Assembly: GCA_903825255.1 (NCBI GenBank)
Contig: CAIJZZ010000045.1
Span: 1-44,927 of the forward strand
Length of the DNA stretch: 44,927 nucleotides
Source: an uncultured bacterium
GTDB lineage: Bacteria > Patescibacteriota > Minisyncoccia > Phycocordibacterales > UBA9973
Direction of reading: 5' to 3'
The notes beneath the pieces are model-generated. The model saw only the letters and a list, made by a program, of their open reading frames with translations, did no database searches and was not told the DNA's origin. How positions within the stretch are numbered: position 1 is the stretch's first letter; the number at the start of each line of letters is the position of its first letter. The position numbers and the translations under genes are program-made. Below, one piece after another: positions 2,697 through 36,503 of the stretch.

Positions 2697-3305
2697 ATGC
2701 AAAGACTTGGATTCAATTTAGCTCTAATGGGTATGATTGCCTCTGGTAAAGAAACTCAAACAGCTATTCTAAAAAAGAAATATGCTCTTCAGCCCGTTGA
2801 AACAGGCGTTTATACTCGAAATTTATTAAAAGAGAAAAGTGCAGATGGTGATTGGGCTAGACGCACTGCTGGAAAAGGTTGGGCTCTACCTGTCGCTTTG
2901 ATGAAAAAATTCCTAATTAAAGAAATAGCCAAAAAATTTAAAAATAAAGATTTAATTTTTATTGGTGGACCGCGCTTGAAACCAGAAGCCCAAATGACCA
3001 AAAAAATATTTAAAGAACTTGGCCAAGATCTTTTTGTTTTATATATTACTCTGCCTGAAAAAGAAGTATATAAACGTTCCCTCAAGCGTAAAGAAGGAAA
3101 TATGAAAGAGATTTACAAAGTCTTTGATACAAAAAAAATAATCAAAAATCGCATCAAGTGGCATGTAGACCAAGTCGGCAAAACGGTAAAATATTTTGAA
3201 AAATTAGGCTGTCTTAAAAAAATAAATGGCAACCAACCGATTGCTAAAGTCGCCAAAGATATCGAAAAGGCCTTAAAAGATCATCAAAAATTATTAAAAA
3301 ATTAA
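2697..3305 (+). CDS. Divergent nucleoside-monophosphate-kinase-like protein (adk paralog)
   Basis: A 202-aa P-loop protein of the adenylate kinase class. It has GMIASGKETQ near the N-terminus, aligned with the GxPGAGKGTQ P-loop, then TGVYTRNLL at the position of the AMP-site motif, and IGGPRLKPEAQM where adenylate kinases have DGFPRT-QA. The second glycine of GKGT is replaced by Glu and the Asp of DGFPR is lost, so it may bind another substrate or be inactive. It is transcribed away from adk out of a 72-bp intergenic region and ends at a bidirectional terminator. It is the only long plus-strand gene in the window. The product could be a nucleotide kinase or a pseudo-enzyme. Confidence 0.75.
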   Translation: MQRLGFNLALMGMIASGKETQTAILKKKYALQPVETGVYTRNLLKEKSADGDWARRTAGKGWALPVALMKKFLIKEIAKKFKNKDLIFIGGPRLKPEAQMTKKIFKELGQDLFVLYITLPEKEVYKRSLKRKEGNMKEIYKVFDTKKIIKNRIKWHVDQVGKTVKYFEKLGCLKKINGNQPIAKVAKDIEKALKDHQKLLKN

Positions 3306-3330
3306 AAATCCCCATTCAAGGGGATTTTTA
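3303..3330. terminator. Bidirectional intrinsic terminator
   Basis: The stem TAAAAATCCCC/GGGGATTTTTA (11 bp) with the 6-nt loop ATTCAA lies between two convergent genes and overlaps the stop codon of the plus-strand gene. A and T runs on either side make it work in both directions. Confidence 0.85.
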
Positions 3331-3333
3331 ATT

Positions 3334-3762
3334 TTAGTTTTCTTTTTTCGGTTCTTCTATAATTTTTTCTGGGTCAAAACCTTCTGCTTTAGCTTTTGCC
3401 TCTGCTTCTGCTTTTTCCAATCTCCTTTTTTTATTTATCTCATCTATCTCTTTTTCAGTTAATTTATTTTGAGGTATATTTGGCAAAGCTTCTTTTTGAA
3501 TTTCAAGCATTAAAGCTTGTGCCTTATCCTCCGTACAAGGTAGCCCTTTTTCTGCAAAAGCATCTTTTATAAAAATTTTGACCGCATCCTTAGCGTGATT
3601 TAAAATCATTCCACTATTAAATTTCGCCAAAAGAGTATCTTTAATCGGACCTATTACTTCTCTATCTTCATTGGTTATTTCAACTGCTTCTACTTTTTTG
3701 ATATCAGAAAACTCTTCTTCTGTTGTTGCTGGTTCTTGTCTTGGAATAAATTTATTATCCAT
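3334..3762 (-). CDS. Hypothetical charged protein
   Basis: A 142-aa protein of unknown function, last gene of the secY transcription unit (21 bp after secY). The N-terminus is acidic (TTEEEFSD), the middle looks helical (IGPIKDTLLAKFNSGMILNHAKDAVKIFIKDAF), and the C-terminal third is a Lys/Glu/Ala coiled-coil-like stretch. No signal peptide or membrane segment. The position directly after secY suggests a role near translation or export, but only by context. A convergent terminator closes the unit. Confidence 0.7.
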   Translation of the reverse strand: MDNKFIPRQEPATTEEEFSDIKKVEAVEITNEDREVIGPIKDTLLAKFNSGMILNHAKDAVKIFIKDAFAEKGLPCTEDKAQALMLEIQKEALPNIPQNKLTEKEIDEINKKRRLEKAEAEAKAKAEGFDPEKIIEEPKKEN

Positions 3763-3783
3763 AAAATTAATTAAATTAATCTT

Positions 3784-5055
3784 TTAATACTCACGCATAG
3801 AAATCTGAGCATCGACTTTTTTGATGAGATCAAGTAATACTGAGACAACGATCAAAAGAGCAGTACCACCAAGGGCAATTGCAGAAATATTAGTTAAAGC
3901 TCGAACAATCAAAGGTAACACCGCAATAAAGCCCAAGAATAATGCTCCCAATAAAGTAATACGGCTTAAGACTTTTGAAATATAAGCGGAAGTCGAAGCA
4001 CCTGGACGAATACCTGGGATAAAAGCTCCATTTTTTTGTAAATTGGTTGAAAGAGCTTCTGGATCGAAAGTAACGGCTGTATAAAAATATGTAAACAAAA
4101 ATACCAAAACGAAATAAAGAACACCGTAAAGAATAGAGGTTTGTGAAAAAGAAATGAGTACATGAGAAATTTTTGAGAGAATAGCATTTGAGGAATTTGC
4201 GAGTACTGTACCGATCATCTGAGGAAATAATAAAATAGAAAGCGCAAAAATTATAGGAATAACTCCCGCTTGATTTACGCGTAGTGGTAAATAAGTCGAA
4301 CCACCACCAAACATTTTATTTCCCCTGACTTGTTTAGCATAAGTTACTGGAATCGGACGCTCCGCTTCGGTCACGATAACTACTCCTGCGATAACAATCG
4401 CTCCGGCTACGACAAACAAAAGAAACAATGGAATCTGAGAAACATCAAAAGAAAAGATTAACTGCCCTATCTCAGATGGAATTTTTGAAACGATACCAGC
4501 AAAGATGATCATCGATACACCATTTCCAATACCGAATTCAGACATAAGCTCTCCAAGCCACATGAGCAATATTGATCCAGCCACCACAATAATTAAATTT
4601 GTAACCTTTTCAAAAGCAGTTAAATTAACCAAAATATTTTGGCTTTGTAATATTGCTAAAAGAGAAAATCCTTGAATAAAAGCAAGTGGTACTGTGAGTA
4701 ATCTTGAATACTGAGTAAACTTTTTTCTACCTGCTTCACCTTCTTCATGATAAAGCTTTTTAAGCGAAGGTACCATGATCGTGAGTAATTGCATAATAAT
4801 CGAACCAGTAATATAAGGGCCTACTCCCAACATAATGATTGAAAGATTAGAAAGTCCGCCACCGGAAAAAATGTTTAAAATACCAAAAAATTGATTATTG
4901 TCCAAAAAACGAGCGAGCTGTACTGTGTCGATGCCTGGAATCGGTATAGCTGCTAGAAGTCTGAAGGCAGCTAAAGAGCCAAAGACAAACAGAATCTTTT
5001 TTCTTAAAGAAACATCTGTCCAGACTAATTTCATTTTATTCCAAAAATTTTGCAT
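3784..5055 (-). CDS. secY: Protein translocase subunit SecY
   Basis: Core channel of the Sec translocon in the inner membrane, 423 aa with about ten hydrophobic segments. Recognisable family motifs include the N-terminal RKKILFVFGSLAAFRLLAAIPIPGID segment read in parts, the GVGPYITGSIIMQLL helix, the cytosolic loop ending in ERPIPVTYAKQVRG, and FDPEALSTNLQKNGAFIPGIRPG before the last helices. It starts one base from the rplO stop, as in the canonical spc operon. No Shine-Dalgarno sequence is visible; the upstream bases are AT-rich. Confidence 0.97.
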   Translation of the reverse strand: MQNFWNKMKLVWTDVSLRKKILFVFGSLAAFRLLAAIPIPGIDTVQLARFLDNNQFFGILNIFSGGGLSNLSIIMLGVGPYITGSIIMQLLTIMVPSLKKLYHEEGEAGRKKFTQYSRLLTVPLAFIQGFSLLAILQSQNILVNLTAFEKVTNLIIVVAGSILLMWLGELMSEFGIGNGVSMIIFAGIVSKIPSEIGQLIFSFDVSQIPLFLLFVVAGAIVIAGVVIVTEAERPIPVTYAKQVRGNKMFGGGSTYLPLRVNQAGVIPIIFALSILLFPQMIGTVLANSSNAILSKISHVLISFSQTSILYGVLYFVLVFLFTYFYTAVTFDPEALSTNLQKNGAFIPGIRPGASTSAYISKVLSRITLLGALFLGFIAVLPLIVRALTNISAIALGGTALLIVVSVLLDLIKKVDAQISMREY

Positions 5056-5056
5056 T

Positions 5057-5602
5057 TTATTTTACTTTCTTCCCGCCTGCATCGCTATGCGTTGCATTTC
5101 GGGCAGGTTTTACTTCTTTTTTAGTTGGGACTTTAACCTCTTTAGGTGCAGGCTTTTCTTTCGTCTCTATTATTACTTCACCTCCGGCTTTGATTATTTT
5201 TTCTTTTGCCGAATCTGAGACCAAACACTTAGAAACTTGAATTTTTATATTGAAATCTAGTTTGCCATTTAATATTTTTACTTCTGGCAACCAACCTTTC
5301 TTTTTCTTTACCACCTTTAATTCATTTAAAATAGTAGGATTTATGGCTCCGCCTTTTGGATAAACTTCTGCGATTTTATCCAAGGAAATTCCAACTGGCT
5401 TTATTTCTATTGAATGAAATCTGTATCCACGATTCTTCGGTAATTTTTTAATAATATCTCGAAGTTCTGGGCGGCGTTTATTACCAGCACGAGCTGTCTG
5501 ACCCTTGCCTCCACGGCCAGAAGTCTTCGCATGCTTACCTCCCCGTCCCACGATACGATCTTTTTTATTCTTATGAATTCTTTTTAAGTTATGTATTTGC
5601 AT
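5057..5602 (-). CDS. rplO: 50S ribosomal protein uL15 with C-terminal palindromic-element insert
   Basis: Late-assembly protein of the large subunit. The first 145 residues or so match uL15: NLKRIHKNKKDRIVGRGG-K-KTSGRGGKGQ, GYRFHSIEIKP, and KIIKAGGEVI near the end. The protein is 181 aa, longer than the usual 145-150, because of a Lys/Pro/Glu tail that ends in KPARNATHSDAGGKKVK. The DNA for that end is an imperfect palindrome, also found in rpsQ, so the tail contains an inserted repeat. It follows rpsE directly: rpmD (uL30), normally between them, is absent. Confidence 0.96.
   Translation of the reverse strand: MQIHNLKRIHKNKKDRIVGRGGKHAKTSGRGGKGQTARAGNKRRPELRDIIKKLPKNRGYRFHSIEIKPVGISLDKIAEVYPKGGAINPTILNELKVVKKKKGWLPEVKILNGKLDFNIKIQVSKCLVSDSAKEKIIKAGGEVIIETKEKPAPKEVKVPTKKEVKPARNATHSDAGGKKVK
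5072..5107. repeat. Intragenic palindromic element (rplO copy)
   Basis: Imperfect hairpin: CCCG (5072-5075) pairs with CGGG (5100-5103), TGCA with TGCA, and CGC with GCG around a TAT loop; the right end reads CGGGCAGG. It is translated in frame as the C-terminus of uL15 (KPAR...HSDAGGK). The same ends (CCCGCCTG and CGGGCAGG) occur at 11109-11138 in rpsQ. Confidence 0.75.
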
Positions 5603-5630
5603 ATAATTATTTTATTCGCTTTGAATAGAG

Positions 5631-6221
5631 TTAATTGGCTTTTTTACTAACCTCTTTTTTTGAAACATCGGCATCTGGGGCGACTGGCACTTCTACTCCA
5701 GCGATCACACTTTCAGGAATTATTTTTGTATATTTTGTAGAGATTTGAGAAAAGGCAGACATCACAGCTCTAGAATTATTTAATTTATTTTTTGTACCAG
5801 ATAAAATCTTTCCGGTAACATCTTTAACTCCAGCTAATTTTACAATATCACGAACTACTGATCCAGCGACGAGTCCACGGCCCTTATTTGGCATAATTTT
5901 GACTGAAGAACTGGAAAATTTAGCAGAGATTTCATGTGGAATAGACATATTTTTAGTAAGCTTCAAGCGAATCATATTCTTCTTGGCACTTCGGAGAGCT
6001 TTATTGATAGCAAGTGATGTATCTCCAGCTTTACCTAAGCCTAGTCCAATACAACCTTTCCTGTCCCCAGCTACCAATGTGACACTAAAAGAAAATCTGC
6101 GTCCACCAGCAACCACACGAGTCACTCGACGAATATTTATTATTTTCTGATCAAATTCTGGTTTAGGTCTATCAAAAGAAGATCGGCGACCAGTATTCTT
6201 TTTTTCATTTCCTTTTTCCAT
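5631..6221 (-). CDS. rpsE: 30S ribosomal protein uS5
   Basis: Small-subunit protein at the mRNA entry and decoding-fidelity region. The S5 N-terminal double-stranded-RNA-binding-like part is seen as FDQKIINIRRVTRVVAGGRRFSFSV and GCIGLGLGKAGD, followed by the C-terminal domain (SVRDIVKLAGVKDVTGKILSGTKN). At 196 aa it has short N- and C-terminal extensions; the last 15 residues are Lys/Asp/Val-rich. It is followed by rplO after 28 nt, with no room for rpmD. No Shine-Dalgarno motif upstream. Confidence 0.97.
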   Translation of the reverse strand: MEKGNEKKNTGRRSSFDRPKPEFDQKIINIRRVTRVVAGGRRFSFSVTLVAGDRKGCIGLGLGKAGDTSLAINKALRSAKKNMIRLKLTKNMSIPHEISAKFSSSSVKIMPNKGRGLVAGSVVRDIVKLAGVKDVTGKILSGTKNKLNNSRAVMSAFSQISTKYTKIIPESVIAGVEVPVAPDADVSKKEVSKKAN

Positions 6222-30150: not shown

Positions 30151-30341
30151 CTTTAAACAATATATACGAATACGAAATGCTAAATAATATAAATATTATT
30201 CAAAAAGCGAAACTCGCTGTTGCATAACCACGTAATTTATAATTTTCAAATAAAAAATATCATAATTAGAAACTTCAAACTCCGAACTTACATATAAAGT
30301 AAGAAGTTTAATATTCCTTGTTAAAATAAAAAGATTCTCAA

Positions 30342-30494
30342 TCAATTATTCTTTTTATTTACTTCTTCTAACCACGAATAAAACAATATCTCAGCCATTT
30401 TGTCTTGAATTTCTCTAGCTTTTAGTATCTCTGATTCGGATAATTTTTGCACTAAAGGCCCTAATGCTTTTTTATATTCTTCGAGAGAGATCAT
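30342..30494 (-). CDS. Small helical protein coupled to the GIY-YIG gene (50 aa)
   Basis: The product begins MISLEEYKKALGPLVQKLSE and ends EEVNKKNN. Its ATG overlaps the stop region of the GIY-YIG gene by 4 nt, a sign of translational coupling. All-helical and charged, like small antitoxin or partner proteins, but no family recognised. Last gene of the riboswitch-headed operon. Confidence 0.6.
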   Translation of the reverse strand: MISLEEYKKALGPLVQKLSESEILKAREIQDKMAEILFYSWLEEVNKKNN

Positions 30495-31349: not shown

Positions 31350-31766
31350 TTAATGACTAATTAGTCCAGAAAAAACATTAATCAGTTCATGCTCTTGCTG
31401 ATTTCCTGCTGAAATAAATTTCTTTATTATATTATTAGTTAGTCTTTTATTGGAATCCATATCTTTTACAGTCATAGCAAAACCAGTTGAGATGGTTCTG
31501 TAAAAAGAAACAACAAAGCCTTTAGCTTGAGATAATTCTTTATTAAACTTTATCCAACACTCTATAAGATTAAGTGCTGTTTCGTAATTTGATTGTAATT
31601 TATTTTCTGTGTTTTCTATCTTTAAATAGATAATGCCATTTTCATATCTCTCTAAATTAGAAGCCATTCCTGCATACATTCTACGAAATTTATCTACTCC
31701 ACTAATATACCTTGAAGATATTTCTTTTACCTTAGATTCAGAAAACGTTTGTGTATTGTCGTTCAT
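31350..31766 (-). CDS. Hypothetical helical protein
   Basis: 138 aa from the ATG at 31766; an in-frame alternative start at 31811 would overlap the preceding gene. Almost fully helical, no membrane segment, no recognised motif (contains WIKFNKELSQAKGFVVSFYR). Second gene of the operon, 26 bp after the Cys-rich gene. Confidence 0.6.
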   Translation of the reverse strand: MNDNTQTFSESKVKEISSRYISGVDKFRRMYAGMASNLERYENGIIYLKIENTENKLQSNYETALNLIECWIKFNKELSQAKGFVVSFYRTISTGFAMTVKDMDSNKRLTNNIIKKFISAGNQQEHELINVFSGLISH

Positions 31767-31792: not shown

Positions 31793-32122
31793 TTATGCTT
31801 GTGCAGGACATGAATCAACTACTGTGCCACCTTTTGTCCTACATTCTTTACATGGCACTAAACTAGCAAAACATGGTCTAAACCAAATACTATTATCTTT
31901 CTCGTCGTATCGCATTGACCCTGATCTATGTATTTTATTCTTCTTACATTTAGAACATAATAGAGTACTCTCACAAAGACAAAGTATTGTTAATGGTCCT
32001 TCCATTTTCTCCATTTCATCTCTAAGAACATAAACCCCCCAATTAATATCCCTTCCCATTACTTCCCCTCTGTATATATTACATACCTCACATTTAATTA
32101 ATCCTTCTGGTATTTTCCCCAT
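31793..32122 (-). CDS. Cys-rich, probably zinc-binding protein under SAM-I riboswitch control
   Basis: 109 aa from the ATG at 32122. It has CEVC at 11-14, CLC near the middle, CSKC, CKEC and a further Cys near the C-terminus: enough for two zinc sites of ribbon type. Longer in-frame starts at 32197 would lie inside the riboswitch expression platform and are rejected. The only Shine-Dalgarno-like GAGG upstream is buried in the terminator stem. No similarity to methionine or SAM enzymes is visible, so its position behind a SAM-I switch is unexpected. Confidence 0.65.
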   Translation of the reverse strand: MGKIPEGLIKCEVCNIYRGEVMGRDINWGVYVLRDEMEKMEGPLTILCLCESTLLCSKCKKNKIHRSGSMRYDEKDNSIWFRPCFASLVPCKECRTKGGTVVDSCPAQA

Positions 32123-32127
32123 AAAAT

Positions 32128-32152
32128 AAAAAATTCCTCTAATAAAGAGGAA
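32128..32152 (-). terminator. Riboswitch-controlled intrinsic terminator
   Basis: TTCCTCT, loop TTATT, AGAGGAA, then TTTTTTATTTT and the ATG on the minus strand. Its left arm (CCT...) overlaps the 3' arm of the antiterminator at 32148-32165, so only one of the two can form. Confidence 0.85.
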
Positions 32153-32192
32153 AGATTTTTTGTGTGGACTAGACACAAAACTCATCTTTCCT
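32148..32192 (-). promoter_or_regulatory. Antiterminator of the SAM-I riboswitch
   Basis: AGGAAAGAT-TTTTGTGT (32172-32192, with a GAG bulge) pairs with ACACAAAAAATCTTTCCT (32148-32165). The 5' arm includes the 3' strand of riboswitch helix P1, so SAM binding should block antitermination and turn the operon off. Confidence 0.75.
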
Positions 32193-32286
32193 GACACTTG
32201 CGTGTCTGGTTGGATTTAGCACCTTACATTTGCAGGTTGCTGTGGGGTCATCGAGCCAATTCTCTACCACCACTCTTGATACAAAC
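32178..32286 (-). promoter_or_regulatory. SAM-I (S-box) riboswitch aptamer
   Basis: Read on the minus strand, the conserved S-box elements appear in order: ATCAAGAG-GGTGG, TTGGCTCGATGACCCC, CAGCAACC, then AAGGTGCTAAATCCAACCAG, a P4 hairpin GACACGCAAGTGTC and GGAAAGATGAG. The internal kink-turn/core residues (AAGAG, GATGA, GCAACC...GGTGCTAA) match the RF00162 consensus as I know it. Helix P1 is short (TATC with GATG). A promoter lies upstream and an antiterminator/terminator pair downstream, so it is a complete transcriptional OFF switch. Confidence 0.93.
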
Positions 32287-32303
32287 TATTCAGTTGTAGA
32301 TAT

Positions 32304-32331
32304 ATTATACCATTTCTATTAATTAAAACAA
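32304..32331 (-). promoter_or_regulatory. Promoter of the riboswitch operon
   Basis: Minus-strand TTGTTT (32326-32331), 16-bp spacer, perfect TATAAT (32304-32309), about 20 nt before the aptamer. Confidence 0.7.
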
Positions 32332-32338
32332 AAATCAA

Positions 32339-33424
32339 TTAAGTAAACCATAATTTTAACTTATAAATGAAACTAACATATTTCTTCATAATATCTATAT
32401 CTTTTTGAAGTAAAAAGTGTTGTCTAATTAATTCTTCATTAGCTAATTTTAATTGAGCTTCATATTGTTGCATTGTTTCTATGTTTCTCCCAGTATAACT
32501 TTTAAGATTTTCTACAAACTTTAAAAAGCCCTGTAAGCTACTTTCGTTTTTTCTAACAATAGATAAAAAGTTATCAGTATGCCCAGGTTGATGGAATGCA
32601 CTTATTTTATTTCCATCTTCTTGAGAAATCTCTTGATTGATATTCTTGTCTAAATATTCAAGATACTTATCAAAATAAACAGCCTGTTTTCTCATTTTAG
32701 TAAGTTGCCTACCAAACTGCATTAGCTTTTTAAATAGTTTCTTCTTTGTAGATTTCTGTTTATTTAAAACACTTTTTATTTCGTTAAAAGCACAAACAAA
32801 ATTCCCATCTGATAAATAACCAAATGTTGTAGTTTCTGTGTGAGTAGTAGTTGTACTAGACATAAACCCTTGGTCCGTAAATGAGCTTGTTTTAATAATC
32901 TTTCTCCCTGTTTTCATAATATCAGCAAAACCAAGAATCATTGCAGTTAGATCAGTGTAAAATTCATTTTGTTTTTCCTTATGCCAAAGTGAATGAAGCA
33001 CAATATGTGAAAGTTCGTGTGCCATAACAGCAATCAATGTTGCTGGATTTTCTGCACAGTTCTCACTTAGTCTTACACTTATAGGAAAGTTAACCATGCT
33101 AGGAGTTCCATAGAATGGAAGATTAGATGGAATAGAAACTTGAGCAGTAATTCCAGCAGTCCCACGATTATTTTGATCTGTCTTCACTAAATGTGTACTT
33201 TGGAAATCATCACTAGAGCTTGGTCTATATCCTTTTGGAACGTAAGAGATATTAACTTCAATTGGTAATCCTAGATATAAGGCAATTGCTTTAATAGCCT
33301 CTTTAACCTTTTTAGAACCTATAAGAGCAACTATTCTCTCATGATCTACAAATTCTTTAATTCCTAATACTGGAATTAATTCTTTAAGGGCCTTTTCTAT
33401 ATAATTATTATCTACTTCATCCAT
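32339..33424 (-). CDS. Zincin metallopeptidase linked to the ABC-3C genes
   Basis: 361 aa. The zinc-binding HELSH (residues 136-140, in AVMAHELSHIVLH) is followed 14 residues later by EFYTD (E154, D158), giving an HExxH plus distal acid zincin of gluzincin type. A Thr-rich loop (SSTTTTHTETTTFGYL) lies near residue 195, then a mainly helical C-terminal half with several Lys/Gln heptads and a weak hydrophobic end. No signal peptide. It begins 11 bp after the stop of the DUF2326 ATPase and shares its strand, so it is probably a fourth component of that operon. Substrate unknown. Confidence 0.8.
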   Translation of the reverse strand: MDEVDNNYIEKALKELIPVLGIKEFVDHERIVALIGSKKVKEAIKAIALYLGLPIEVNISYVPKGYRPSSSDDFQSTHLVKTDQNNRGTAGITAQVSIPSNLPFYGTPSMVNFPISVRLSENCAENPATLIAVMAHELSHIVLHSLWHKEKQNEFYTDLTAMILGFADIMKTGRKIIKTSSFTDQGFMSSTTTTHTETTTFGYLSDGNFVCAFNEIKSVLNKQKSTKKKLFKKLMQFGRQLTKMRKQAVYFDKYLEYLDKNINQEISQEDGNKISAFHQPGHTDNFLSIVRKNESSLQGFLKFVENLKSYTGRNIETMQQYEAQLKLANEELIRQHFLLQKDIDIMKKYVSFIYKLKLWFT

Positions 33425-33435
33425 TTTTTATTAGC

Positions 33436-35208
33436 TTATTCACTAATCTTTTCATTTAATTCTTTTTCATCATAATCAATAGATTGTTTAAATTGTTTAT
33501 AAAATAAAGGTTCTTGAATTGAAAGACTTATTGCTTCCTTGTCCTTAACTTTGAAATTTAACCTTTCATTAGCTACTTCAGGCGACATAGCGTCAGTATT
33601 AAATGTTCCAATATATTGGAAAGAGTCCTCTTTCAATGAACCTAAGTAATTTAAGATATTAAAGGTTGCATCTGTATCAATATCTCCAAAAAGTAATCTA
33701 TCGTGAATTAATAAGTTGTGCGACTTAGCACTAGTATGTTCATTAACCAACAAACTAAGATCATAAATTATTTGCCTACCTCTATTTCGCCCTTCGCTTC
33801 CTTGTCTATCAACTTCAACATCTATTTTAAAGAATTCTTTATTTTTTATGTTTCTTTTTACTCCCAAATCGAAAGAAAAAACTCCATCTCTATTTTTATA
33901 AACCTTCTCATGAATTTCCAAAAATGTTTTTCTAAATGAAGACTCCTTCTCACTTATTAAGAAAAATTTAGCCTGTAAATCATTATATAAAGATTGAAAC
34001 TCAGAAGTAACTTCAGCGATGTTTTTATCACAATAATCTATGTCTTCTAGTAATTTAGAATATTCATTAAAATTATTTAATAAATCATTAGACATAATCA
34101 TTCCACGTTGTAAATGATTTTTACCACTATCAATGATGGTTCTATATTTTGAGATACTCTCATGTTTTATATCAATCTCTGACTCTACTTTTTTTAATCT
34201 GTTTTGTAATCCTTCTTTTTGCCCAGAAAGCATTTCAATTTTAAATACAGACATATTATCTCTAAAGTTTTTTAATTGAATAAAATCCTTCTGAACAAAA
34301 TCGCCTAATCCTTTTATATAATTATTAAAAAAACTTTTTAGATTTTTGTCATCAATAGAAACATCATCGCTTGTATGATTAAGAAATTCTTCAATTTCAC
34401 TCAAGGAAAATACTATCCTGCCTTTCTCCCTTAGTAAATCAGAAAGCAAGGATTCTTCTTGTTGTAAGCTAAAAGAACTATCGGAAACTTGTTTAGATAT
34501 TTCTTCATAAGATAAACCATTTTGTATTTCCTGTATTTTTATTTCTAAATCAGTTTGTAAGGATCTTAATTTTGGAATATCTAAACCTTTTTGTTCAATC
34601 TTCTTTCTACTTAATGCTCTTACTGCATAAATACCATCATAATCATCTTGCTTTGAAGAAATCTCTTCAAATAAATGAACTGGCAAATCAAAAAAGTATA
34701 AACTGGCCTTCAATCGATCAATAGTATTAGAAATGAAGAAATATAAAAATGTAGAATAAGTATAACTTGATTCTTTTATTATAAAATTACAAAACTCTCT
34801 AAAAGAAATTTGTTTGTCTAATCCACACAATTTCGCAAGTTCATTTTTTGTTACGAGTTCATCTTGTTCAATGAAATCTCCACTACCTATCTTCATCTTT
34901 ATACTACCTTGCTTGTTTCTAGCGAGAGTAACGTCTTTGCCATCTATAGTTAGATTAATATATACATATGAATCAACAGGTAAAATACTATCAGGAACTT
35001 TTAATATCCTGCTTTCGGAACTTTTCTTTAAAAGAGCAAAATTAATTAACTCTATAGATAAACTCTTACCAGAACCATTCCTTTGTTCGTTGCTTACCTT
35101 TCCATCTTTATCCTTAGAACTATCTCCAACAATAAAGTTTATGCCTGGCTTGAATTCTAGGGTTTTGAATCTTTTTTCTTCTGACCATACTTTATTGATT
35201 TTAATCAT
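33436..35208 (-). CDS. ABC-3C ATPase (DUF2326-type, SMC/RecN-like)
   Basis: 590 aa. N-terminal IKINKVWSEEKRFKTLEFKPGINFIVG and Walker A NGSGKS (44-49) with the following SIELINFALL; two long coiled-coil stretches between about residues 195 and 420; the C-terminal half-site contains LLIHDRLLFGDIDTDATFNILNYL, matching the DUF2326 Walker B region. Such ATPases drive ABC three-component conflict systems, with DNA or ends as probable sensor ligand. Its start overlaps the middle-component gene by 8 nt. Confidence 0.88.
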   Translation of the reverse strand: MIKINKVWSEEKRFKTLEFKPGINFIVGDSSKDKDGKVSNEQRNGSGKSLSIELINFALLKKSSESRILKVPDSILPVDSYVYINLTIDGKDVTLARNKQGSIKMKIGSGDFIEQDELVTKNELAKLCGLDKQISFREFCNFIIKESSYTYSTFLYFFISNTIDRLKASLYFFDLPVHLFEEISSKQDDYDGIYAVRALSRKKIEQKGLDIPKLRSLQTDLEIKIQEIQNGLSYEEISKQVSDSSFSLQQEESLLSDLLREKGRIVFSLSEIEEFLNHTSDDVSIDDKNLKSFFNNYIKGLGDFVQKDFIQLKNFRDNMSVFKIEMLSGQKEGLQNRLKKVESEIDIKHESISKYRTIIDSGKNHLQRGMIMSNDLLNNFNEYSKLLEDIDYCDKNIAEVTSEFQSLYNDLQAKFFLISEKESSFRKTFLEIHEKVYKNRDGVFSFDLGVKRNIKNKEFFKIDVEVDRQGSEGRNRGRQIIYDLSLLVNEHTSAKSHNLLIHDRLLFGDIDTDATFNILNYLGSLKEDSFQYIGTFNTDAMSPEVANERLNFKVKDKEAISLSIQEPLFYKQFKQSIDYDEKELNEKISE

Positions 35209-35494
35209 GATTTTTTATTATTAGATAAGGTCTTTGAAACTCAACTAAACCAAGCGAATACATAAGTAATATAGACAAATAGATTTGCTGGCTAGGGATT
35301 TTTGAATTTATCTTTTTTACATCATTAAATAATGTATAAATTGATATTTTCTTATCAGTTTTAAGTAATTTAGGATTAGAAACATACTGCTTTAATATAA
35401 TATAACATATTAGTATAGGACTAGAAAAAATACTTGAGTGTTTATCAAAAAGTATCGGACTCTTCTCATTTATTTCTTCTTTAATCTTCTTCAT
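35201..35494 (-). CDS. ABC-3C middle component
   Basis: A 97-aa helical, winged-helix-sized protein: ILICYIILKQY, ISIYTLFNDVKK and YLSILLMYSLGLVEF fit the short middle-component (MC) proteins that link effector and ATPase in ABC-3C systems. Overlaps both neighbours (14 nt with the SMEK gene, 8 nt with the ATPase gene). Assigned mainly by size, pattern and context. Confidence 0.75.
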   Translation of the reverse strand: MKKIKEEINEKSPILFDKHSSIFSSPILICYIILKQYVSNPKLLKTDKKISIYTLFNDVKKINSKIPSQQIYLSILLMYSLGLVEFQRPYLIIKNHD

Positions 35495-36503
35495 TTGTTT
35501 TAAATTCTAAAGGGAAAACATCACATGTAAAAAACATATTTAGAACAAAACTCATAACTTGAGTTTTAGACAGAAATCCAACATTAAAATCGGTCCGTAT
35601 CTTTTCTGTAAGTTTATCAATAGCTACTAAGGGTTTCCCTTGATTACTTTCTAGCACCATAAAACTTTCAGCTCTAAGATACTTTAAAATTAAATCTTTT
35701 TGAATCTCATTTAAATCCTGAGAGAAACATTCAGAGAGACGGTTCTCATAATTAATTAATTTATTATGATCATCATCCGCCCCAGTCATTCCCAATGTAA
35801 GCTTATAAAGATCTATCAACCGTTTCCAGTCATTATCGAATTTATCTTTCTTTTCTTTAGGACTAGATTTATAGATAGAAATGGGGTCTTTCATTTCAGC
35901 CATATCACTTTTTGTTATTCTATCCTTTAAAATTTGGAACAATATCTCAAAGGCCTCACCGTCAACTTGTTTATCTGCCATTACTTTATCTGGAACCTTT
36001 ATCGCATTTTCTACAAATTTACAAATATCTTCTATGTGTTCAAGTTTACTTAAATTATTTATCTCTCTTAAAATATCAGGAATACAAATCACCTTAACGT
36101 CATAATCTTGATATTTAGGACCGAAAGTTTTCATTCCCTTAGTAACATTATTAACTTGTATAATGAATTCTACTTTTGAATATAATTGATTATCTTTCTT
36201 TAGAGGAATTTTACAGAAGGAACTTTTGATCTTAACAAGTGTATTCTCTATGGTTACTTGAATAGCTTTTTTATTTCCTAAATCTAGTAAATCTATGCCA
36301 GGATAATTTGATTTGTCTTTGTTTGTATTAAATAATTTAGAATTATTATCTCGATATAAAATATTAAATAATTCTGCAAAAAAATCCTCTGCAGAGACAG
36401 TTCCGTTGTTTAAATTAATCTTAGCTAAATTCTTATTATTAGCACAAAAGAGTAATATTCTTGAGCTAATTGATTCGATCATTTCTTCTTTTTTAAAAAT
36501 CAT
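35481..36503 (-). CDS. SMEK-domain effector nuclease of an ABC-3C system
   Basis: 340 aa. The N-terminal SMEK domain is clear: LNNGTVSAEDFFAELFNILY, SNYPGIDLLDLGNKKAIQVT (D71, Q82) and IKSSF. It is a restriction-endonuclease-like fold (PD-(D/E)xK class with QxT in the last position) and is presumed to be the effector that damages nucleic acid. The C-terminal 150 residues are helical and probably bind the partners. First gene of the four-gene set, 115 bp after hsdS, so the set may have its own promoter, which I cannot place with confidence. Confidence 0.85.
   Translation of the reverse strand: MIFKKEEMIESISSRILLFCANNKNLAKINLNNGTVSAEDFFAELFNILYRDNNSKLFNTNKDKSNYPGIDLLDLGNKKAIQVTIENTLVKIKSSFCKIPLKKDNQLYSKVEFIIQVNNVTKGMKTFGPKYQDYDVKVICIPDILREINNLSKLEHIEDICKFVENAIKVPDKVMADKQVDGEAFEILFQILKDRITKSDMAEMKDPISIYKSSPKEKKDKFDNDWKRLIDLYKLTLGMTGADDDHNKLINYENRLSECFSQDLNEIQKDLILKYLRAESFMVLESNQGKPLVAIDKLTEKIRTDFNVGFLSKTQVMSFVLNMFFTCDVFPLEFKTNEED

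Follow-up and report, generated by a model that had tools for sequence, protein, structure and literature searches.

The window analysed here, the whole 44,927 nt of contig C45, belongs to a Patescibacteria bin of 980 kb (completeness 96%, contamination 6%). The minus strand of the window carries an S-box leader followed by a series of small genes (Table 1). The first two of these received the placeholder names SbxB and SbxC. That the leader holds a SAM-I riboswitch had been proposed in a first-pass annotation from the sequence alone, and an Infernal/Rfam cmscan search of the whole window and library gave a significant match to RF00162 (SAM) on the minus strand (61.3 bits, E 6.2e-12; gathering score 44.4 bits), with an alignment spanning the full model from position 1 to 108. 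The SAM-I core is intact, consisting of AUCAAGAG, GCAACC and GGUGCUAAAUCC (GGUGC-A-UCC). In the cmscan alignment the P1–P4 four-way layout is present, P1 being short and its outer pairs non-standard or weak.

Table 1. Features of the S-box leader and the genes behind it; positions refer to the window unless another locus is named
Feature	Position	Strand	Evidence or remark
Extended -10 promoter TGgTATAAT	32304..32312	-	read directly from minus strand
SAM-I (S-box) aptamer RF00162	32179..32285	-	cmscan 61.3 bits
AGGAAAGAU, aptamer 3' strand = antiterminator 5' arm	32184..32192	-	9-nt perfect complement to 32156-32148
AUCUUUCCU, antiterminator 3' arm, overlaps terminator 5' arm	32148..32156	-	
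Intrinsic terminator, 7-bp stem and U tract	32124..32152 (stem 32152-32134)	-	terminator scan
SbxB (placeholder name), 109 aa, Cys-rich, first S-box gene	31793..32122	-	
SbxC (placeholder name), 138 aa, second S-box gene	31350..31766	-	
Zeta-toxin-like P-loop kinase, 192 aa	30739..31317	-	PF06414 E 8.8e-8
Small GIY-YIG protein, 81 aa	30491..30736	-	PF01541 E 3.2e-17
50-aa ORF overlapping GIY-YIG gene	30342..30494	-	ORF only
Terminator-like site, may end transcript	30206..30218	-	terminator scan
G123/G033 gene pair	L167 (G123) 5400-6002 + 4818-5369; L076 (G033) 3192-3713 + 3710-4234		both genomes metK-less

The expression platform is complete as well. Over 9 nt AGGAAAGAU pairs perfectly with AUCUUUCCU, and the terminator stem is directly followed by TTTTTTATTTT. 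Without ligand, the antiterminator fold (-42.3 kcal/mol) and the fold combining P1 with the terminator (-41.4 kcal/mol) are less than 1 kcal/mol apart, and such nearly isoenergetic structures are what is expected of a switch. The 3' arm of the terminator contains AGAGGA, the only SD-like sequence ahead of SbxB, whose start codon lies immediately 3' of the U tract. The -35 element of the promoter is weak, hence the extended -10 was missing from a strict consensus promoter scan. Thus aptamer, antiterminator, terminator and promoter, all described as readable at the outset, were each located by cmscan, terminator scan, folding or direct reading, and the S-box of the window is intact with a terminator and a competing antiterminator. 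This anatomy was established by computation; from it, SAM would be expected to bind and to switch the genes off.

Neither SbxB nor SbxC has a significant match in Pfam, NCBIfam, PADLOC or PHROGs, and the 50-aa ORF has no family match in Pfam, NCBIfam and PHROGs-type profile searches. For SbxC, a start at 31766 agrees with its homologue better than one at 31811. The view that the downstream genes lack a link to methionine or SAM held, as profile searches revealed no such family in SbxB, SbxC, the zeta-like protein, the GIY-YIG protein or the 50-aa ORF. AlphaFold models of SbxC and of SbxA, a linked family introduced below, are of low confidence (pLDDT 54-55), and Foldseek matched them to no fold at E <= 0.001. 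With hits this insignificant and models this poor, the names at the head of the Foldseek list, lipocalin-like among them, were dropped. Searches against PDB sequences returned nothing useful.

The five genes had been taken as one operon. This is certain only for SbxB-SbxC. The zeta-like gene may be transcribed from a separate promoter, since a perfect TATAAT at 31339-31334 lies 16 bp ahead of its ORF. The terminator scan found no terminator between SbxC and the zeta-like gene, and the zeta-like, GIY-YIG and 50-aa genes may belong to the S-box transcript, maybe by read-through. In a relative from the Moraniibacteriota (G262) the S-box unit stops after SbxC. The zeta-like gene exceeds the cut-off of PF06414 (32.3 versus 22.3 bits) with a partial match covering 10-140 of 199 positions. 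It is missing from the 59 relatives compared, and no antitoxin family was recognised among the ORFs flanking it. Furthermore, in the compared loci the S-box unit is not accompanied by the zeta-like and GIY-YIG genes.

The switch lies in the 3' part of the window (about 30-45 kb), where the GC content, about 34-35% over most of the window's other sequence, falls to 29-32% and tetranucleotide use differs from the remainder. In seven relatives the stretch upstream of rpsL was compared and lacks the genes of this part. These features together let us conclude that it is a lineage-specific island. The type I restriction system noticed near the switch was recovered by PADLOC (MTase_I E 2.5e-264, Specificity_I 8.5e-93, REase_I 7e-45), and the island also holds ABC-3C-like genes (SMEK 1e-19, DUF2326 4e-17, a weak MC6). 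This ABC-3C-like set, at 32339-36503, consists of a SMEK protein, a weak MC6-like middle component and a DUF2326 ATPase; a protein of 361 aa encoded in the same segment contains HELSH, a metallopeptidase-like motif.

The bin contains two metK loci. A second S-box is located directly ahead of metK on contig C34, and another metK, without S-box, is found on C30. The two contigs are homologous: their pepA copies are 87% identical, and metK and a tRNA-synthetase gene are 70-76% identical at the DNA level. C34 is therefore probably derived from a second, related organism. These duplicated stretches (L161/L162) are also a sign of a mixed bin. The composition of C45 is nearer to that of C30, and full-length fusA is single-copy in the bin. 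We infer that the organism of the window probably has a metK without S-box, that on C30, and that the S-box of the window is its only one. Among the aptamers inspected, the nearest to that of the window belong to metK S-boxes of the same genus (L024) and the same bin (L001). Judged from this sequence similarity, a local recruitment of the switch to rare genes is probable. Joint transfer of S-box and SbxC from Moraniibacteriota is for the same reason not favoured.

To place this locus among related genomes, about 750 Patescibacteria genomes were compared, 384 at the class and 380 at the phylum level. S-boxes occur in 64 of the class-level and 84 of the phylum-level genomes, metK (PF02773) in 103 of the former. 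At 111 of 146 places inspected metK directly follows the S-box; the remaining S-boxes mostly stand ahead of small genes without recognised family. Comparison of the two lists shows that, of the 64 class-level genomes bearing an S-box, 17 have no detectable metK, which here means no bacterial-type MetK (PF02773) in draft genomes. Twelve metK-less genomes of the class have an S-box over the gathering score, at 53-77 bits. Orphan S-boxes score as high as those of metK, and most orphan leaders retain the terminator and the antiterminator pairing better than shuffled sequences do, the terminator counts being rough since the automatic finder overlooks the window's own terminator. High scores and preserved expression platforms in genomes without metK make the orphan S-boxes look selected.

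In at least two metK-less genomes, G195 and G089, the SAM user TrmD is retained. There SAM must still be needed and would have to come from outside. In G195 (L081 3429-6551) the S-box is followed by an orphan of 200 aa, located where its relative G213 (L059 1-4091) has metK, with the same S-box position, the same neighbours and khpA and trmD conserved downstream. The orphan has thus replaced metK in situ. In G070 (L067 2523-4115) a weak S-box of 36 bits is followed by broken metK fragments, and this locus is a relic of SAM-synthetase loss. Another arrangement, tandem S-boxes of 37.8 and 28.1 bits ahead of metK, was seen in G545 (L171 301-1273).

Genes behind S-boxes without metK were compared all against all. 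A search of related genomes for S-boxes ahead of the gene set of the window, which the first-pass annotation had suggested, was successful for both genes. In G262, a Candidatus Moraniibacteriota MAG, a 53% identical SbxC homologue follows an S-box in second position. Profiles run against the 384 class-level genomes, and a pattern run against 84,980 species genomes, yielded it as the one other member of the family, S-box-linked too, and an unbiased homology search recovered it again. The SbxB homologue, also preceded by an S-box, lies in G705 (L163:3481-3804), a genome from another class, and shows 39% identity in the alignment (shuffle p 7e-9; 3e-7 with Cys positions fixed). SbxB and SbxC are thus each known from two genomes only. 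SbxA (also a placeholder), which has no significant family match in profile searches, occurs in four genomes (G007, G307, G083 and G262), always behind an S-box, with 36-53% identity between members; the S-box in G007 scores 30.9 bits. Right after SbxA in this genome, on the same strand, follow type III mod and res genes (whole arrangement with the S-box, L166 5509-11262), and this type III system may be partly under SAM control.

G123 and G033 share a further recurrent unit, a pair of genes. The first is related to cobalamin adenosyltransferases (PF01923, E 1e-24 to 1e-27) and is followed by a conserved partner. This ATP-using adenosyltransferase under SAM control is a candidate that might replace MetK. 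When 286 genomes were searched with profiles for SbxA, SbxB and this partner gene, every member lay behind an S-box. Over the 384 and 286 genomes searched with profiles, and for SbxC also the 84,980, there was no S-box-free SbxA, SbxB, SbxC or second gene of the pair. Hence, the linkage between S-boxes and orphan families is recurrent. Many other S-box orphans have no family in common. Most S-box orphans reside in genomes without metK; G705 and G007 have metK elsewhere.

IMG/VR scans detected no relatives of SbxA, SbxB, SbxC or the zeta-like gene in viral contigs, and on this ground a viral origin was rejected. The S-box DNA pattern gave 69 matches in viral contigs, apparently mostly chance occurrences within coding sequence plus two metK leaders. 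One 38-kb IMG/VR contig (L222) has a Patescibacteria-type metK behind an S-box and is either a virus or a misbinned host.

We consider it fairly probable that the leader is a SAM-OFF attenuator and that it controls a low-SAM regulon which is specific to Patescibacteria and encodes small, fast-changing orphan proteins. With SAM bound, P1 would hold the 3' strand of the aptamer, the terminator would form and SbxB-SbxC would be off, AGAGGA being hidden in the terminator in addition. When SAM falls, the antiterminator would form and SbxB-SbxC would be transcribed, perhaps with read-through to the zeta-like and GIY-YIG genes. SbxB, SbxC, SbxA and others would then represent a set of orphans repeatedly put under S-boxes, mostly where no SAM synthetase is detectable, and this set may serve a response to SAM scarcity other than methionine or SAM biosynthesis. 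The location of orphans in housekeeping loci and mostly in metK-less genomes suggests that this response is a general one. The original idea of a SAM OFF switch, in an island, on an operon without recognisable methionine or SAM genes is supported, SAM binding and direction being predicted. A more speculative extension, which we put forward only tentatively, is that the S-box was turned from a regulator of metK into a sensor of SAM supply, and so of host contact or state, that drives changing small proteins. Many Patescibacteria would then be unable to make SAM and take it from a host, and SbxB-SbxC would be one of the units driven in this way, lying in a defence island.

An ordinary S-box regulon, in which SbxA, SbxB and SbxC are unrecognised factors for acquisition or salvage of SAM or methionine where metK is absent, would fit the prevalence of S-box orphans in metK-less genomes and the need for external SAM in at least two of them that keep TrmD. 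We regard it as unlikely, since the sequences suggest small soluble proteins, the searches matched them to no transporter family, and metK is present elsewhere in G705, in G007 and probably, on C30, in the window's organism.

Still less probable, in our judgement, is the proposal that a phage SAM lyase or hydrolase disarms restriction and the S-box thereupon releases a second layer of defence, formed by the zeta-like kinase, the GIY-YIG protein and SbxB/SbxC. Phage enzymes degrading SAM, such as SAM lyases, do act as counter-restriction (PMC7877911), and several neighbourhoods are suggestive: the type I restriction and ABC-3C-like genes of the island, the type III genes behind SbxA in G007, a type III restriction-modification system adjoining the S-box gene in G742, and a Panacea-domain antitoxin gene after SbxB in G705. 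However, related orphans lie in housekeeping loci, beside ribosomal-protein genes in G307 and beside khpA/trmD in G195 and G089. The zeta-like and GIY-YIG genes do not travel with the S-box unit, the former possibly having its own promoter; SbxB and SbxC lack a match in the defence and phage profiles of PADLOC and PHROGs; and no homologue of these families appeared in viral contigs. The defence trigger proposed at first is therefore not supported.

In a relic, metK would have been lost or moved and its leader left standing before whichever gene came next, as the G070 fragments behind a 36-bit S-box and the replacement in G195 illustrate. For the window this is very improbable: its aptamer and expression platform are complete, orphan S-boxes score like those of metK, and distant genomes have members of the same families under S-boxes.

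In textbooks, S-boxes control the genes for methionine and SAM. A full-text literature search, of incomplete coverage, found no paper joining a SAM riboswitch with the candidate phyla radiation. Well-conserved S-boxes ahead of recurrent orphans, in near-complete genomes lacking MetK, provide a low-SAM handle on genes of uncultured episymbionts and raise the question how a cell unable to make SAM responds once SAM runs out.

Among known systems, the zeta/PezT toxin kinases (PF06414) share the P-loop and the Zeta_toxin profile match with the third gene of the window, but here the protein has 192 aa, the match is partial and no epsilon- or PezA-like partner was recognised. In auxotrophic Lactococcus lactis a riboswitch is reported to control a methionine transporter (PMC7058034). 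It would resemble the switch described here in sensing how well the cell is provided with a substance obtained by import, and differ from it in that no transporter was recognised in the window's controlled set. With the SAM-I riboswitches of RF00162 the window shares the aptamer, the core motifs and the transcription attenuator. In a survey of 255 genomes S-boxes were tied to methionine and cysteine metabolism and transport, unrecognised targets included (PMC3766115), whereas the switch of the window heads small orphan genes. The S-box-metK units of Patescibacteria have the same leader layout, and those of the same genus and bin include the nearest aptamers; in the window SbxB-SbxC stand in the place of metK, within an island.
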